Source: an uncultured Acidimicrobiales bacterium (GTDB lineage Bacteria > Actinomycetota > Acidimicrobiia > Acidimicrobiales > SZUA-35). Taken from it: 64,000 nt of DNA. The stretch covers positions 1 to 64,000 of the forward strand of contig CALKZY010000008.1 of the NCBI GenBank assembly GCA_938002965.1, in the 5' to 3' direction. The translations under genes and the position numbers were made by a program. The notes below the pieces were generated by a model. The model saw only the letters and a program-made list of their open reading frames with translations, was not told the origin of the DNA and did no database searches. Shown here one piece after another: positions 15,712 through 63,241 of this stretch (its first letter is position 1; every line of letters starts with the position of its first letter).

Positions 15712-17135
15712 CCCGACCGGTCTACGTCTCGACTCGAGGCCAGGCCGAGCAGCTCGGCTTTGGTGACGCCTTGCTCACCGGACTGGCCACCGATGGTGGC
15801 CTGTACTGCCCGGTGGAGTTTCCACCGCTGCCCGACATTTCGACCGACACCGACTACCGGGATGCGGCCGTGGCCATCATGGCCCCCTACGTGGCCGGCA
15901 CCTTCGATGTGGCCGAGTTGGAAACCATGGTGGGTCTGGCTTACGACAGCTTCCGACATCGCGACGTCTGCCCGGTGGTCGAACTCGGTGGTGCTCATCA
16001 CCTGCTCGATCTCAGCCAAGGGCCCACTCTGGCCTTCAAAGATGTGGCACTACAACTTGTTGGGCGGATGCTCGATGCCGAGCTGAGTCGCCGCGGACGG
16101 CGAGCAACCATTCTTGGTGCTACATCCGGCGATACTGGTTCGGCCGCCATCGAAGCATTGGCTGGCCTTGAAACGGTCGACGTTGTCATTCTGCACCCGG
16201 CTGGTCGGGTGTCCGATGTCCAGCGTCGACAGATGACAACAGTCGACGCTGCCAACGTCCACAACATTGCGGTCCGGGGGACCTTCGACGACTGTCAGGA
16301 TCTGGTCAAGGCGGCGTTCAATGACCGGAAGCTGAGAGAGGCCGTGTCACTTGGCGCCGTCAACTCCATCAACTGGGCCCGGGTTATGGCCCAGATTGTC
16401 TACTACGTCACGTCGGCCAGGGCGGTGCGCCCTGATGGCGGTCCGGTGTCGTTCTCGGTGCCAACAGGCAACTTCGGCAACGTGCTGGCCGGTTGGTACG
16501 CCAAACAAATGGGCCTTTTGGTCAACACCTTGATTGTCGCCAGCAATCGAAACGATGTGCTGACCCGCTTCTTCGAGGGACGAACACTCGAGATTCATCA
16601 GGTTGAACCGTCGCTGAGCCCGAGTATGGACATTCAGGTGTCGTCCAACTTTGAACGCCTTCTATGGGAGACCAGCGGGCGTGACGGCGCCAAGGTGGCC
16701 GATCTGCTTGGTGAGTTGCGCTCCACCAATCGGGCCGAGGTGCCGGCAGGTTGGTGTCGCCTGATCGACGAAGCTTTCGTCGCCTACCGACTAAGCGACG
16801 AGGAGACGCTCCAGGAAATCAAGCGAACCCACTCGGAGCTTGGCCTGATCCTCGATCCGCATACGGCCATCGGTGTCGGAGCGGCACGACAATACGCCCA
16901 CGCTTTAGGCGACAATGGCCCACCGGGGTCGCGCTATTGCGGAGAGCCGGTTATCACGTTGGCCACGGCCGATGCCGCCAAGTTTCCTGATGCGGTCGAA
17001 GCTGCGTTGGGGCAACGTCCGGAGCTGCCGGAGCATTTGGCTGATTTGTTTGACCGTCAAGAGAACTACGACGAGATCGACAACGATCTGGCCATTGTGG
17101 CCGATCGGCTCCACGCCTTACGTACCGGGTCGTAG
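15708..17135 (+). CDS. thrC: Threonine synthase
   Basis: 475 residues, the long subtype found in E. coli and Corynebacterium. It starts 'YVSTRGQAEQLGF', and has 'GPTLAFKDVALQ' with the PLP lysine, 'ILGATSGDTGSAA', 'GAVNSINWARVMAQIVYY' and 'FSVPTGNFGNVLAGW'. It converts O-phosphohomoserine to threonine. Overlapping hom by four bases, it depends on homoserine kinase for substrate, yet thrB, normally next in this operon, is absent: the following gene is rho after a 232-base leader. Confidence 0.95.
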   Translation: MTRPVYVSTRGQAEQLGFGDALLTGLATDGGLYCPVEFPPLPDISTDTDYRDAAVAIMAPYVAGTFDVAELETMVGLAYDSFRHRDVCPVVELGGAHHLLDLSQGPTLAFKDVALQLVGRMLDAELSRRGRRATILGATSGDTGSAAIEALAGLETVDVVILHPAGRVSDVQRRQMTTVDAANVHNIAVRGTFDDCQDLVKAAFNDRKLREAVSLGAVNSINWARVMAQIVYYVTSARAVRPDGGPVSFSVPTGNFGNVLAGWYAKQMGLLVNTLIVASNRNDVLTRFFEGRTLEIHQVEPSLSPSMDIQVSSNFERLLWETSGRDGAKVADLLGELRSTNRAEVPAGWCRLIDEAFVAYRLSDEETLQEIKRTHSELGLILDPHTAIGVGAARQYAHALGDNGPPGSRYCGEPVITLATADAAKFPDAVEAALGQRPELPEHLADLFDRQENYDEIDNDLAIVADRLHALRTGS

Positions 17136-57047: not shown

Positions 57048-57881
57048 CTAGACGTCCAGGACGCCTCGGAGTATCGATTGGCCCGAGTGAGTCGGATCGC
57101 CGTCGAGAGGCTCGACCGAGACGTCGACTACGGGGAAGTCGCCGGGATTGATCGTGTCAGGCACATCGATCCGACCGTCAGCCGAAAGCACACCGAGCGA
57201 GATCATCCCCTCGACGTTGGTGTCGATCATCCACACTTCGTAGAAGGCTTCGCCATTGTCGGGCAGTGTCGGAACGTCAATGTCGAGGATCAAGTCGCCG
57301 TCTTCGTTCACGAGAACGGCAGATCCGGTTTGATCGAACGCAACTGGCAGTTCGTCGTTGACGATCGTGGCCGAAGCCACTGGTATACCTGACGGTTCGT
57401 TGGAGCCAAGTTGGGCGGCCAGCAGACCTCCGCCTACGGCCAGAACGGCGACCGCGGCTGCAGCCAACAACCACGATGGACCGGATCGGCGAGTGGCCTT
57501 GGCCTGGCGTCGATCGTCTAAGGTCGGCACCTCGCTTCGCCGCGCATCGACATAGTGATTGGGTTGCGCTGCTTGGTTGGCGTGCTCGAAGTGCGTCGGC
57601 TGTTGGGCTGGTGCTTGATGCTGCGCCGGAGGAATTTGCTGCGCCGGTGGCACTGCCTGTAAACGGTGGGTCGGAGGTTGGGTCGTCGGTTGCTGAGGTG
57701 CCGTCGTAGGCATAGGGGATGCCTGCGCGGTCGCTACGTCGGCTCGCACGTCAGCAAGAATGGCCGGAAGTAGATCGACGGGCGGCTCTTCAAGGCGCCA
57801 ATCGTCGTCGGTCATCGAGCGGGCCAGAGCCCCCAACTGCTGTTCCAGCTCGTCGAAGTTGTGCATGCTGGAGTCGATCAT
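57048..57881 (-). CDS. Anti-sigma factor, RskA-type
   Basis: 277 residues. An N-terminal cytoplasmic section without the HxxxCxxC zinc motif ('FDELEQQLGALARSMTDDDWRL') and a Pro/Gln/Ala-rich linker precede one membrane helix ('WLLAAAAVAVLAVGGGLLAAQ', about 135-155), then an extracellular anti-sigma-K domain: 'ELPVAFDQTGSAVLV', 'LPDNGEAFYEVWMIDT', 'VDVSVEPLDGDPTHSGQSILRG'. It presumably holds the ECF factor until proteolysed. ATGA overlap with the sigma gene. Confidence 0.85.
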   Translation of the reverse strand: MIDSSMHNFDELEQQLGALARSMTDDDWRLEEPPVDLLPAILADVRADVATAQASPMPTTAPQQPTTQPPTHRLQAVPPAQQIPPAQHQAPAQQPTHFEHANQAAQPNHYVDARRSEVPTLDDRRQAKATRRSGPSWLLAAAAVAVLAVGGGLLAAQLGSNEPSGIPVASATIVNDELPVAFDQTGSAVLVNEDGDLILDIDVPTLPDNGEAFYEVWMIDTNVEGMISLGVLSADGRIDVPDTINPGDFPVVDVSVEPLDGDPTHSGQSILRGVLDV

Positions 57882-58516
57882 GACTGTCCCTCCAGGTGGT
57901 GCTTGAGTTTCTGCAGGCTGCGACGAATATCGCTCTTGACGGTTCCTAGAGGTAAGCCGGTCTGCGCTGCAATTTCGGGATGGGTCAACTGGTTGAAGAA
58001 AGACAGTTCAACTACTGTCCTTGCCCGGTCGTTGAGTTCGTTCAGGGCTGTGGCCAAGATCATCTGATCGCCGACGCGATCAATTTGAACTCGGTCTGAG
58101 CCGTTGTCTTGGCGGTCGGCCACCTCGACGCCGTCGGCGATCTGAGGTCGGCGGGACTGCATTCGATATTGATCTACGACCCGGTTCTTGGCAATGCCCA
58201 TCAGCCAGGCTCGAATTGATCCCCGGTCAGGGTCGAATCGATGGCGGGCTCGCCATGCTGAAGTGAAGATTTCCTGGGTGACGTCGCGTCCGGTTTCTGG
58301 GCCAAGTTGACGACGGCAGTAGCTGTAGATCAGCGAGCCGTGGTCCTCATACACCTGCGCCAGTGCCGCTTCGTCGCCTTCGACGAAGCGTCGCTCGAGA
58401 TCGTCTATCAACTCCATTGATGCACCACCCTGGTCACCTGGAAGCGGTTTGACGAGTCTGAGGTTTGGTGGCGCGGGGCGACGCGTAAGCGTTGATCCGC
58501 TGTTTGCCAATGCCAT
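57878..58516 (-). CDS. ECF sigma factor (SigK-like)
   Basis: 212 residues. Region 2 reads 'ALAQVYEDHGSLIYSYCRRQLG' and 'DVTQEIFTSAWRARHRFDPDRGSIRAWLMGIAKNRVVDQYR'; region 4 'LNDRARTVVELSFFNQLTHPEIAAQTGLPLGTVKSDIRRSLQKLKHHL' style HTH. The start is ATG 58516, with an internal ATG at 58417 possible. Stop overlaps the RskA-type anti-sigma gene, the standard arrangement of a membrane-signalled stress regulator. It is divergent from the DUF4397 gene, a likely target. Confidence 0.92.
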   Translation of the reverse strand: MALANSGSTLTRRPAPPNLRLVKPLPGDQGGASMELIDDLERRFVEGDEAALAQVYEDHGSLIYSYCRRQLGPETGRDVTQEIFTSAWRARHRFDPDRGSIRAWLMGIAKNRVVDQYRMQSRRPQIADGVEVADRQDNGSDRVQIDRVGDQMILATALNELNDRARTVVELSFFNQLTHPEIAAQTGLPLGTVKSDIRRSLQKLKHHLEGQS

Positions 58517-58863
58517 GTTTGTTGACTACGCCGGACATTGCCCGGTGGATGCGTCTGTCGGTGATCTCTGTTTGTCATTTGCTAAAGCGGGAGGACTTGT
58601 TTGCCGAAGCAGCTGTTGAGCGAGCCAGCGGTCATTTCGGCACAGGTGCAGGCATTCTCCGCTTCGATAACTGTATCCGCCACGTTGGACCTAGCTGGGT
58701 AAAACGGCGCATTTACGTTCGGCCCCACGTTTGCAGATGCGGGTTGGAATCAATCTTTAGAATCATCTTGTTCAGGTGGAGTTTTTCGACGGTCGATGCA
58801 TCCGGCCGTGGTCACTCTCCGTAACCACGTTCTGTCAGATCCCAACTCAGGAGAAACTCAGAC
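58517..58863. promoter_or_regulatory. Divergent promoter region of the sigma and DUF4397 genes
   Basis: 347 bases without a credible gene. A small hairpin CGTGGT/ACCACG spans 58807-58829 in what is probably the 5' untranslated region of the DUF4397 gene, and AGGAG lies at about 58850, 9-12 bases before the GTG. I could not identify a certain ECF -35/-10 pair; GGAATC at about 58744 and CGAC near 58788 are the nearest things to one, with non-standard spacing. Confidence 0.5.
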
Positions 58864-59658
58864 GTGAACTCGTTCAAGAAGCTTTCACTAGCAATAGCGT
58901 CCATCGTGGCCATGCTCGCCGCCCTCACCCTTCCGGCGTCGGCTGACGATCATGCTCGCATTCACCTCATCCACGGCATTCCAGGCGTGGATGTTGATGT
59001 CGAAGCTGGCGGCGAAGTCGTCTTCTCCGACTTCTCTTTCAAAGATACCCAGGACCTTTCGGCTCTGGCCGGTGCCACCCTTGAAGACGTAATGGTCAAG
59101 GTTGCCGGTACCGACGATGTAGCCATCGATGGTGGCGATATCACGCTGCCTGCCGAGGGCAACTTCACTGTTATTGCTCACCTCGACGCTGAGGGCACCC
59201 CTGCCCTCGCCGTGTTCGAGAATGATGATTCCAACGTTGAGGCCGGCAAGGGACGCATCGTTGTGCGTCACGCTGCCTCCGCCCCGGCTGTTGACATCAA
59301 GGCCAACGGCGACGTTGCCTTCAGCAATGTGGCAAATGGAAAAGAAGGTGCTGCTGACCTGGCCGCTGGAACCATCAGCGTTGAGGTCGTGCCCACCGGT
59401 GCGGATGAGCCTGTCGTAATCGGCCCGGCCGATCTTCCCATCAAGGAAGGTGAATCCCTCATCGTGTACGCCACCGGCTCGCTCGACGATGGCCTTGAGG
59501 TCATCACCGAGACCATCACTGGACTGCACTCCACCCCGGATGTCGTCAACACTGGTGACTCACCGGTCAACAACAGCACCAATGGTCTGCTGCTCCTGCT
59601 CGCAGGCATGGGCGTTCTGTCCATCGGCGGAGTAACTCTCGCCACCCGTCGCGGCTGA
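58864..59658 (+). CDS. DUF4397 surface protein with C-terminal anchor
   Basis: 264 residues. Signal peptide 'LSLAIASIVAMLAALTLPASA' cleaved before 'DDHARIHLIHGIPGVDVDVEA', the start of a DUF4397 domain, repeated at 'ARIVVRHAASAPAVDIKANG'-like sequence about residue 135. The C-terminus follows sorting-signal geometry: 'VVNTGDSPVNN', then a hydrophobic stretch ('GLLLLLAGMGVLSIGGVTL') and 'ATRRG', but the motif is VVNTG rather than LPxTG. A sortase gene is next on the same strand. The protein is probably exposed on the cell wall; molecular role unknown. Confidence 0.85.
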   Translation: MNSFKKLSLAIASIVAMLAALTLPASADDHARIHLIHGIPGVDVDVEAGGEVVFSDFSFKDTQDLSALAGATLEDVMVKVAGTDDVAIDGGDITLPAEGNFTVIAHLDAEGTPALAVFENDDSNVEAGKGRIVVRHAASAPAVDIKANGDVAFSNVANGKEGAADLAAGTISVEVVPTGADEPVVIGPADLPIKEGESLIVYATGSLDDGLEVITETITGLHSTPDVVNTGDSPVNNSTNGLLLLLAGMGVLSIGGVTLATRRG

Positions 59659-59691
59659 TCACTTCGACTTTGTATATCGCAGCTGGGTATT

Positions 59692-59715
59692 CAGCGACCT
59701 TGTACTTTGTCGCTG
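59692..59715 (+). terminator. Hairpin between DUF4397 and sortase genes
   Basis: CAGCGAC (59692-59698) and GTCGCTG (59709-59715) form a perfect seven-pair stem with a T-rich 10-base loop. It may attenuate transcription into the sortase gene or stabilise the abundant upstream message. Confidence 0.5.
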
Positions 59716-59751
59716 GGCATCTAGCGGCAAAGCATCTGACCACCAGTTGAC

Positions 59752-60543
59752 ATGACTGAACCGGCGGACAACACCATGACAATCCTCTCCCAACTGCCCG
59801 GCCTGCGATGCCGTACAATCCGCTTGATCTTGACTGCTTTCGTAGCGGCTGCGGTCACAGCGGGATGTGGATCACCTGATCAACGTGATCAGGCGCAGGG
59901 ATTTGTTCAGGACGGCAATGAGGTTGGTGTTCAGTCCGCCGGTTCGGATACGCAACCGGAAGTCGACGGCTCGACCGCTTCCGCCGATGACTCTTCAGGG
60001 GTGCCACAAGCGCCGTTAAGGGTCACGGCGGACACGCTCAGCGATCGGGTCGTCGACCTCGGTCCGGCAGACGGCATCCCCGAGGTGCCGGTAGCTGGAC
60101 CGCAACCGGTCAGTGTCTCCATCGACCGCATTGGGGTCGAAGCCGCCACCGTCCTTGGTGTCGGTATCGAGCCGAACGGCGAGATGGAGGTTCCCCCACC
60201 GTTGCAGGTTGGATGGTACGAGTACGGTCCGTCACCGGGTGAAACCGGCTCGGCGGTGTTGGCCGGCCACATCGCTTCCAATGGCATCGATGGAGCGTTC
60301 CGCTACCTCGACCGGGTGGAGGTTGGTGACACCATCGAGGTCGGCTATGACAACGGATCGGTCTCCCGCTTCCAGGTGACCGACCTGGTGCAGTACGACA
60401 AGTACTCGCTTCCGTTCGACGACGTCTTCGCTGAAGAGGGCGAGCCGCAGCTTGTACTTATCACCTGCGGTGGCGACTTCGACTCTGCGGCTCGGAGCTA
60501 CGAAGACAACGTCGTGGTTTACGCCGACCCTGTAGAGGCCTAA
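59752..60543 (+). CDS. Sortase with lipoprotein-type signal (class E/F-like)
   Basis: 263 residues. A hydrophobic N-terminus ends in V-T-A-G-C, a lipobox, so the enzyme may be lipid-anchored instead of held by a transmembrane helix. After an acidic linker the sortase barrel has 'VSIDRIGVEAATVLGVGIEPNGEMEVPP' style start, catalytic His in 'VLAGHIAS', Cys in 'LVLITCGGDFDS' and Arg in 'AARSYEDNVVVYA', as in class F/E-type actinobacterial sortases. The likely substrate is the DUF4397 protein just upstream. ATG 59776 is an alternative start. Confidence 0.85.
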   Translation: MTEPADNTMTILSQLPGLRCRTIRLILTAFVAAAVTAGCGSPDQRDQAQGFVQDGNEVGVQSAGSDTQPEVDGSTASADDSSGVPQAPLRVTADTLSDRVVDLGPADGIPEVPVAGPQPVSVSIDRIGVEAATVLGVGIEPNGEMEVPPPLQVGWYEYGPSPGETGSAVLAGHIASNGIDGAFRYLDRVEVGDTIEVGYDNGSVSRFQVTDLVQYDKYSLPFDDVFAEEGEPQLVLITCGGDFDSAARSYEDNVVVYADPVEA

Positions 60544-61168: not shown

Positions 61169-63241
61169 ATGACGGCTGCCGCATCACAGGCTAACCGTCC
61201 GGTCCTCGGCGAGCGCTACGAACTGGTCTCCCGGATCGGCGCGGGCGCATCAGCGCAGGTCTTTCACGCCATTGACCGGCGGCTGAACCGTCATGTGGCA
61301 ATCAAGCATTTGCGCCCTGATTTTGCTTCCGATCCCCGCTTTCTAAAGCTGTTTCGGGCTGAGGCTTATCTGGCGGCACAGCTGAGCCACCCCAACATCG
61401 TGGCCGTGTACGACTGGAGCGACGAGGTTGATTCCGGGCCGTTCATCGTCACGGAGTTGCTGGCCGGTGGCACGCTCCGCGACATGATCCTCGGCGATCA
61501 TCAACTAACCATCTCCCAGGTAACGTTCATCGGCCTCCAGGCGGCGCAAGGGCTGGCTTTCGCTCACGAGCAGGGTCTGGTCCACCGTGATGTAAAGCCC
61601 GCCAACCTGCTGTTCGGGCAAGAGGGTCGGGTTCGAGTAGCCGACTTTGGTATCGCCCGGGCAGTGGCTGAAGCGGCATGGACAGAGCCCGAAGGGGTTT
61701 TGATCGGAACCGCCCGATACGCCGCCCCGGAGCAGGCCACTGAAGGCACTGTTGACGGGCTGGCTGACGTCTACTCGCTCGTGCTGTGCTTGGTGGAAGC
61801 AGCAACTGGAAGTCTGCCGCTGCTGGGCGAAAACGCCTTAAGCACGATGACCACGCGCCAGACGGTCGATATCCCGGTCCAAGGGGAAATGGCCGAGATC
61901 TTGGGTCCGCTGGCCGACGCGTTGGTCAATGCCGGCAAAGCCGACCCGGCCGAACGAGCGTCGGCCCCGGAACTAGTGGAACAGCTACTTGTTGTTCACA
62001 GCGATCTTCCGGACCCGGCACCACTGCCCTTGCTTGATGTGACCACTATCGGAGATCCGGTTTCGGTGAACGGCCAGCGGCCTGCCGGTTCCGGTCCGAC
62101 AATTCTTGGTGATCGACCGGGCGAAGGCGCGAGCGCTGGAGATCAAGGGCAGGACAACGTCGAGGTGATTGATCTCGACACTGAGGCGCCCACTGAGATG
62201 CCCGGACTACTTGAGCAGCCCGTCGCGGCCAACGAGGTAATCAACGGTGCTTCGGTGGAAGCCGAGCGTTCGGCGCCTCGCCCTTACGATGCCACATTCA
62301 CCCGCCGTCGCCGCAGAGGCCCGCTCTTGGCTGGGCTTCTTCTCCTCCTGGCTATCGGCATCGGCGCCGCCGTAGTTGGTCCCACGCTTCTTGAACGAGC
62401 CCGCCCGGAGACGACAGTGATCGAACTTGGGCTACCAACCTTCGAGGTTGCCAACTTCCAGAGTTCGCCGGTGGCCGACATCCGCGACCAAGCGGATCAG
62501 TTCGGATGGTCGGTTCAGGTGGTTGAGGACTACCAGGACGGTACGTCTGCGGGGGAGATTCTGCGACAGTCACCCGAACCAGGTGCATCACTGCCTCCTG
62601 GCGAGGAAATCATGATTGTCATCTCTCTCGGCCCGGAGCTGAGGATCGTTCCCGATGTCGTCGGAGTCACGGTCGACCAAGCCCGGGCTGCGACCGCTGG
62701 CGCGTCGCTGGCCGTGGGTGACGTTGTTGAAAGGAACGACGAAGCGGTGGCCACCGGGGTCGTCCTGGAAGCGTCGATAGGTGGCATTCCGGCCCAACCT
62801 GGGGCCGAAGTAACCACTGATACCGAGATTGACTTGGTTGTGAGCAGCGGTCCGACTCCTCGTCAGATTCCGAACCTGGTGGGCCTGAGCGTTGATCAGG
62901 CACGTTCGGCATTGGCCGATCTCAGCTTGGCGATTGAGGTTTCGGAGTCGTTCTCGGAGACCGTGCCGGAGGGTGAGATCATCAGTTCGAGCCCTGCGGC
63001 CGAAGAAGTATTGGCTAGAGGGTCGACGGTGTCGGTTGTAGTATCGCTCGGCCTGCCGTTTGTTGAGATTCCCGACCTGGCCGGCCTTCAGGCTGTTGAC
63101 GCGGCCACTCAACTGGAAGAACTGGGACTTGTCATCGAGGACACCGATGGTCCCCCGAATCGACCCGTTCTGATCACCGATCCGGTTGCCGGTACATCGG
63201 TTCGCCTGGGAACGTCGGTTCGGATCATCGTCAGCCGGTAG
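61169..63241 (+). CDS. PASTA-domain Ser/Thr protein kinase (PknB type)
   Basis: 690 residues. Cytoplasmic kinase domain: 'ERYELVSRIGAGASAQVFHA' (Gly loop), ATP Lys in 'VAIKHLRPDF', 'HRDVKPANLLF' (catalytic loop), 'VADFGIARAV' (DFG), 'GTARYAAPEQ'. An acidic linker, one membrane helix ('GPLLAGLLLLLAIGIGAAVVG', about residue 385) and four extracellular PASTA repeats follow, the first degenerate. PASTA repeats sense muropeptides or lipid II; PknB-type kinases govern cell growth and wall synthesis. It is monocistronic here, away from the usual pbpA/rodA/pstP cluster. Confidence 0.94.
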   Translation: MTAAASQANRPVLGERYELVSRIGAGASAQVFHAIDRRLNRHVAIKHLRPDFASDPRFLKLFRAEAYLAAQLSHPNIVAVYDWSDEVDSGPFIVTELLAGGTLRDMILGDHQLTISQVTFIGLQAAQGLAFAHEQGLVHRDVKPANLLFGQEGRVRVADFGIARAVAEAAWTEPEGVLIGTARYAAPEQATEGTVDGLADVYSLVLCLVEAATGSLPLLGENALSTMTTRQTVDIPVQGEMAEILGPLADALVNAGKADPAERASAPELVEQLLVVHSDLPDPAPLPLLDVTTIGDPVSVNGQRPAGSGPTILGDRPGEGASAGDQGQDNVEVIDLDTEAPTEMPGLLEQPVAANEVINGASVEAERSAPRPYDATFTRRRRRGPLLAGLLLLLAIGIGAAVVGPTLLERARPETTVIELGLPTFEVANFQSSPVADIRDQADQFGWSVQVVEDYQDGTSAGEILRQSPEPGASLPPGEEIMIVISLGPELRIVPDVVGVTVDQARAATAGASLAVGDVVERNDEAVATGVVLEASIGGIPAQPGAEVTTDTEIDLVVSSGPTPRQIPNLVGLSVDQARSALADLSLAIEVSESFSETVPEGEIISSSPAAEEVLARGSTVSVVVSLGLPFVEIPDLAGLQAVDAATQLEELGLVIEDTDGPPNRPVLITDPVAGTSVRLGTSVRIIVSR

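Follow-up and report, generated by a model that had tools for sequence, protein, structure and literature searches.

A candidate SigK/RskA-type envelope switch for a DUF4397 surface protein and its sortase in an uncultured Acidimicrobiales bacterium

Why would the genes for an extracytoplasmic function (ECF) sigma factor and its anti-sigma factor stand back to back with those for a DUF4397 surface protein and a sortase? DUF4397 is a domain of unknown function. We analysed such a locus in the 4.69 Mb genome of an uncultured Acidimicrobiales bacterium, within a 64,000-nucleotide stretch of contig CALKZY010000008.1 (the window, whose positions give all locus coordinates below). Sequence comparison indicates that the locus is probably a SigK/RskA-type envelope switch, which would drive the DUF4397 protein together with the sortase that would anchor it. 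This reading draws on the recurrence of the gene set, on a promoter-like motif that points both ways out of the gap between the operons, and on a sorting signal that goes with the sortase. The features concerned are listed here.

57048..57881, minus strand: membrane anti-sigma factor with an RskA_C domain, 277 residues (PF10099, E = 1.7e-15, above the cut-off)
57878..58516, minus strand: SigK-like ECF sigma factor, 212 residues (Sigma70_r2 and Sigma70_r4 above the cut-off)
58527..58552, minus strand: GCATCC-N16-CGTA, a promoter-like site directed at the sigma gene
58798..58823, plus strand: GCATCC-N16-CGTA, a promoter-like site directed at the DUF4397 gene, whose GTG start lies 40 bases on
58864..59658, plus strand: secreted protein with two DUF4397 domains, GTG start (PF14344, E = 1.1e-22)
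59536..59556, plus strand: sorting signal P-D-V-V-N-T-G of the DUF4397 protein (P, V and G columns invariant), then a hydrophobic stretch and RRG; sequence from this region, TPDVVNTGDSPV
59752..60543, plus strand: class F-like sortase (PF04203, E = 5e-22), lipobox-like at its N-terminus by pattern match

An initial annotation of this DNA had described an ECF sigma factor and an RskA-type anti-sigma factor, overlapping by 4 bases and diverging across 347 bases from a DUF4397 gene and then a sortase gene. The coordinates and Pfam matches confirm the overlap (57878-57881) and the gap (58517-58863); an alternative sigma start is possible at Met34 (58417), with AGGGTGG upstream, and would widen the gap to 446 bases. 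The sigma factor scored 108.1 bits against the NCBIfam SigK family PRK09646 (curated cut-off 226), and its best NCBIfam match was PRK12519 (110.4 bits, cut-off 222). The DUF4397 protein matched PF14344 in two stretches with 81.3 bits, against a gathering cut-off of 30.6, and its AlphaFold2 model (19 rows; mean predicted local distance difference test score, pLDDT, 82) has beta-strand-rich domains at residues ~32-119 and ~129-218 and a low-confidence tail. Solved structures, searched by sequence, gave only meaningless matches near E = 0.5 for the DUF4397 protein and the anti-sigma factor, and nothing at E<=0.001 for the sortase.

We looked for the gene set in 296 genomes drawn from the class Acidimicrobiia, using hidden Markov models (HMMs) built iteratively from the locus proteins. 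DUF4397 was present in 53 genomes at E<=0.001, and the distinct places listed, each taken with up to 6 kb per side, gave 67 stretches (68 with the locus). Neighbours were counted at the 53 loci where 1.5 kb or more was available to either side, those with shorter flanks being dropped: a sortase gene lay behind the DUF4397 gene at 39, sigma and anti-sigma genes lay near it at 14, and both held at 13. A second set came from named genomes and comprised the best 80 of 467 confirmed DUF4397 loci, ranked by DUF4397 similarity and so biased towards query-like proteins. Here the sortase followed in 73 of 80 cases and the sigma and anti-sigma genes were found in 55, either in the tandem order DUF4397-sortase-sigma-anti-sigma (48 loci, from Demequina, Cellulomonas, Microbacterium, Ornithinimicrobium, Modestobacter, Klenkia, Kineococcus, Arthrobacter and other genera) or divergently (7 loci); the other 25 had no such pair in the stretch, some of these being ended by contig ends. 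Finally, an even draw of 396 genomes across the phylum contained DUF4397 in 52 at E<=1e-6 and yielded 62 stretches outside the class. Sixty of these gave a sortase at 30 loci, sigma and anti-sigma genes at 15 and both at 9, and the last two held a sortase in one and a sigma/anti-sigma match in neither. We conclude that the occurrence of sigma and anti-sigma genes near DUF4397 exceeds chance in these genomes. The four families that had been put forward as a divergent module of Acidimicrobiia do recur together, but they reach beyond that class, and their commonest layout among the named loci is tandem.

The two operons of the locus face the same promoter-like word pair, GCATCC-N16-CGTA. We call it SigK-type by comparison with the consensus of Mycobacterium tuberculosis SigK, and a site of this type ahead of a surface-protein gene is found at 58798-58823. 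Two outward-facing sites in one gap compare with an expectation of ~0.0005 per strand. In the class, we looked for CATCC-N16/17-CG[AT]A in the 160 bases ahead of 68 DUF4397 genes (for another two the sequence was too short) and found it at 34, against 0.6% of random sequence windows. The motif preceded 14 of the 18 DUF4397 genes that have a sigma gene no more than 2.6 kb away and 20 of the 50 that have none (Fisher p = 0.012). Its spacers were 16 bases (11 cases) or 17 bases (23 cases), and other lengths from 8 to 25 gave at most 1 case each. Permuted motifs (287) averaged 0.18 occurrences with a maximum of 3, the reversed motif gave 0 and the reverse-complement orientation 4; ahead of other open reading frames of at least 180 residues the motif occurred in 17 of 1766 cases. 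Fasciclin genes carried it in 9 of 14 cases near a sigma gene and in 0 of 1 otherwise. Among the named loci the full motif was found at 7/7 divergent, 7/48 tandem and 13/25 other loci, and the looser NGCATC[CT] at 53/80 (permuted mean 4.5, maximum 24). Because the looser word is common where the full motif is rare, the tandem group seems to have kept the -35 part and changed the -10 part. In the phylum set a looser pattern occurred at 11/60 loci, a count made without a control. Parts of one study (PMC7509140) describe SigK sites as highly conserved among Actinobacteria.

Across the whole host genome, the exact GCATCC-N16/17-CGTA pattern is at chance level, with 14 sites against 15 for the reversed control, and we therefore claim no regulon. 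The initial annotation had proposed looking for a shared ECF promoter motif in the gap and the genome; such a motif is borne out in the gap and before the same genes elsewhere, and the exact genome-wide count is no higher than its control. Beyond the locus pair, the only promoter-like exact sites are one on contig C14, 10 bases before an exported-protein-like frame, and a second divergent pair, GCATCC-N17-CGTA, on contig C21 (L387; 16475-16501, minus strand, and 16591-16617, plus strand), flanked by a condensation-domain gene and a HupE/UreJ-type gene.

The promoter might be of SigK type and yet be served by another ECF sigma factor, the adjacent pair mainly controlling itself and other genes. 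We consider this unlikely. In its favour, 20 of the 50 sigma-distant DUF4397 genes keep the motif, so regulation from other parts of the genome is common, and a first look found 46 sigma candidates in the host genome, 10 of which were scored. Among those 10, however, the locus sigma alone matched at E<=1e-25, and the two gap sites share the -35 word, the spacer and the -10 core, one of them preceding the sigma gene itself. Control by the adjacent sigma factor remains the reading that we prefer.

We next consider the link between the DUF4397 protein and the sortase. The tail of the DUF4397 protein reads V-N-T-G-D followed by a hydrophobic stretch and RR and contains no LPXTG, so anchoring through LPXTG was rejected. 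Across 19 DUF4397 tails the P, V and G of P-x-x-V-x-x-G are invariant, and the usual tail runs from V-[PN]-[TSA]-G into a hydrophobic stretch and on to basic residues, so that the sorting signal has the form P-x-x-V-[PN]-[TSA]-G. This motif was present in 105 of 117 DUF4397 proteins whose gene has a sortase gene behind it and in 7 of 31 without (class and named loci together). The host genome encodes exactly two DUF4397 proteins and two sortases, each sortase behind one DUF4397 gene; a tail profile scored these two DUF4397 proteins at 5.7e-16 and 1.8e-14, the next hit being a 46-residue frame at 6.7e-4. The sortase itself matched the class F family NF033748 with 146.7 bits (E = 4.1e-43), below the curated cut-off of 166, and the next NCBIfam family at E = 1.7e-7. 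The catalytic His and Cys columns are 100% and 99% conserved in 149 aligned sortases, and both residues are present at the locus; for the catalytic Arg, a loose pattern matched 61/118, and no Arg column in the 149-sortase alignment exceeded 85%. The enzyme therefore resembles class F sortases in its best NCBIfam match and its conserved His and Cys, but differs in scoring under the cut-off and in being paired with one DUF4397 protein that bears P-x-x-V-[PN]-[TSA]-G.

Class F sortases are reported, in passages of one paper (PMC13251363), as widespread in actinobacteria, with examples in Propionibacterium acnes and in Actinoplanes missouriensis (SrtF1-4); the same passages state that their physiological roles are unknown and that deletion of all four A. 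missouriensis enzymes gave no phenotype. The latter result would suit a sortase that acts on some other substrate and does not anchor the DUF4397 protein, the operon link being regulatory only, as would the lack of LPXTG in the tail. Loci of family f66 (L328, L330 and L332) point the same way: IPDTG- or MPDTG-tailed DUF4397 genes lie divergent to sigma/anti-sigma genes with no class F sortase in the stretch, which indicates that the regulatory and anchoring links are separable. We nevertheless judge a different substrate to be quite unlikely, since the sorting motif tracks sortase adjacency and the tail profile is strong in the host genome on the two DUF4397 proteins alone. Anchoring of the DUF4397 protein by the neighbouring sortase is the interpretation that we retain.

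The second DUF4397-sortase operon of the host genome (L075:6186-9400, contig C6) encodes an 848-residue DUF4397 protein with a VPTGNS tail, whose gene overlaps the sortase gene by 4 bases; it has neither a sigma gene nor an upstream motif. In a separate group, seven sortase-less DUF4397 frames (L052, L057, L071, L079, L087, L090 and L093; six from f4, one from f36) end at the stop in TG or AG after a proline, as in PRFTG, PVFTG and PKFAG, with no hydrophobic tail. These ends are possibly another C-terminal signal.

Where does the sigma factor come from? The DUF4397-linked sigma factors (adjoining or within ~6 kb) of f26, f31, f34, f37, f40, f42 and f46 form one 13-row clade (support 99/93). 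This clade excludes the locus sigma, and a shared sigma lineage for the locus pair and the other divergent class loci was rejected; the divergent layout was thus reached more than once. The locus sigma lies instead in a group of 24 rows (83/74, a weak fork; a starred 22-row set with the locus has 99/95), whose neighbours include a fasciclin gene in 12 rows and DUF4397 in 4 (the locus, L065, L083 and L092). Fasciclin was confirmed by Pfam in both proteins tested (L166 and L169), the others being assigned by an HMM that L169 had seeded. A further sigma tree, of 61 rows, requires 7 changes for divergent linkage, with 6 or more forced by starred branches, compared with 14.4 for shuffled labels; on it the locus belongs to a starred 11-row set in which linkage was to fasciclin in 7 rows, divergent in 2, tandem in 1 and other in 1. 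It is difficult to see why the same partners should have been linked again and again if no function tied them together. The single fasciclin match of the host genome lies on contig C49, and the motif is absent from its fetched stretch.

Several observations weigh against the switch. The promoter motif was first spotted by eye in the locus gap, and because it had been picked there we counted all 5-mer-N16/17-4-mer pairs in 62 DUF4397 upstream regions, with the locus excluded and near-copies removed; CATCC-CGTA ranked first (17) and CATCC-CGAA second (14), and 40 shuffles never rose above 5. The motif is missing from half of the DUF4397 genes of the class and from the second DUF4397-sortase operon of the host. 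In its full form it is also missing from 41 of the 48 tandem named loci; there the GCATC[CT] word is present and the -10 boxes differ, and this rarity slightly lowers our confidence in the switch. The broad motif lies within 380 bases upstream of 9/36 sigma genes and the exact motif of 2/36, which suggests that self-activation is less general than control of the target. To these points we add the A. missouriensis deletions described above. In addition, the locus anti-sigma matches 31 places in the class, only 4 of which, the locus included, are beside DUF4397, and two genomes of the same family as the host (G265 and G273) keep the sigma/anti-sigma pair at another locus, with no DUF4397 or fasciclin there, adjoining genes that look MoxR-like and VWA-like (judged by eye, with no family scan). 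The conserved synteny that had been anticipated across Acidimicrobiia therefore recurs in the class (14/53 loci) but fails within the host's own family.

Two unrelated divergent operons might, on such grounds, have become neighbours in this lineage by chance: the pair stands elsewhere in G265 and G273, the locus sigma belongs to the fasciclin-linked clade, and 27 of the 31 anti-sigma matches are not beside DUF4397. We regard this as very unlikely and reject it, as the linkage turns up in many families, under two different layouts, and the shared motif points both ways out of the gap.

How does the locus relate to known systems? Excerpts of a published analysis (PMC7509140) present mpt83-sigK-rskA as a conserved, recurring cassette found even in Yersinia. 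The locus resembles it in having a SigK-like ECF sigma gene that overlaps an RskA_C anti-sigma gene, an adjoining exported-protein gene behind a CATCC-type site, and sigma relatives that stand beside fasciclin genes. Unlike the cassette, it has DUF4397 in place of fasciclin, an added sortase and a divergent layout; its anti-sigma lacks Pfam RskA_N, and its sigma falls under the NCBIfam SigK cut-off. Judged from its genes, the locus operates in the manner of the mpt83-sigK-rskA kind, and its sigma clusters with relatives linked to fasciclin, while it fails on fasciclin, on RskA_N and on the SigK and class F cut-offs. As fasciclin is the commonest identified neighbour in the clade of the locus sigma, the locus looks like this cassette with the fasciclin lipoprotein swapped for a sortase-anchored DUF4397 protein. 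The initial annotation had proposed a parallel to SigK/RskA with a different surface protein and a dedicated sortase; this is supported, except that a sigma factor inside the fasciclin-linked clade makes the system more than merely parallel.

It had also been noted that the anti-sigma factor lacks the usual zinc motif. We found neither HxxxCxxC nor a match to RskA_N (PF22618) or zf-HC2 in the protein, and a short N-terminus free of the zinc motif is common to its relatives. Portions of a survey (PMC7406223) indicate that ~44% of class I anti-sigma domains are zinc-less and that the motif is absent from M. tuberculosis RskA and from RseA. Since these proteins do without it, we rejected the absence as a novelty and regard it as ordinary. 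Compared with zinc-associated anti-sigma (ZAS) class I factors, the locus protein is alike in being a membrane anti-sigma encoded directly downstream of its ECF sigma, and unlike in having no HxxxCxxC. Some DUF4397-linked anti-sigmas do have zf-HC2 above the cut-off (L330, L376 and L326), and that of L061 scores RskA_N, its zf-HC2 score staying below the cut-off. RskA_C was confirmed by Pfam in 6/6 further anti-sigmas checked (L326, L330, L341, L346, L376 and L083). The AlphaFold2 model of the locus protein (14 rows, mean pLDDT 72) shows N-terminal helices (4-22 and 37-54), then a disordered linker leading to a membrane helix (136-157), and an outer beta domain of eight strands. Elsewhere in the host genome, the locus anti-sigma matches an RskA_C-like frame on contig C28 (L181:5965-6630, E = 3.5e-16) that has no recognisable sigma gene adjoining.

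These features suggest how the switch might operate. At rest, the membrane anti-sigma would hold the ECF sigma through its short cytoplasmic helices, and an envelope signal acting on the RskA_C domain would release it. In M. tuberculosis, sigma is freed from RskA by stepwise proteolysis, and we presume a similar release here. The free sigma factor would then read the two GCATCC-N16-CGTA promoters, namely its own, so that it feeds back positively on itself, and the one ahead of the DUF4397-sortase operon. The DUF4397 protein would be exported with its tail held in the membrane, where the co-made sortase would cleave in V-N-T-G and fix the protein to the envelope. A wider reading is that SigK switches for DUF4397 are phylum-wide and repeatedly reassembled, that the class F sortase has its own signal and a single co-regulated substrate, and that RskA_C senses the anchoring state and so loops back to transcription. 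The repeated linkage and the shared motif are there in the genomes; the reading as a whole is speculative, and we think it doubtful.

A search of the open-licence literature found nothing in print on DUF4397 with a sortase or on DUF4397 with an ECF sigma/anti-sigma pair. The locus offers class F sortases and DUF4397 a partner each, together with a candidate regulator, a promoter motif and a sorting signal, and cultured genera, for example Demequina and Salinibacterium, carry the same gene set. A further suggestion from the locus is that SigK-type systems change the surface protein and keep the promoter, which bears on the purpose of MPT83-type proteins.

The locus is flanked on the left by an NAD-dependent DNA ligase gene and on the right by a gene for a 191-residue protein without a Pfam match and then a PASTA-domain kinase gene. 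Profiles of the ligase and the 191-residue protein matched none of the 67 other class DUF4397 stretches and that of the kinase matched one, and we therefore place all three outside the module. Another region of the host genome (contig C6, ~61849-63228; L386:3350-4729, minus strand) holds a single 459-residue frame beside MoxR-like and VWA-like genes, where G265 and G273 carry separate sigma and anti-sigma genes. It comprises a diverged ECF sigma, whose domains score below the Pfam cut-offs, a short RskA-type anti-sigma stretch, an acidic linker of considerable length and, at its end, a membrane helix; it has no sensor domain and looks like a natural sigma/anti-sigma fusion.

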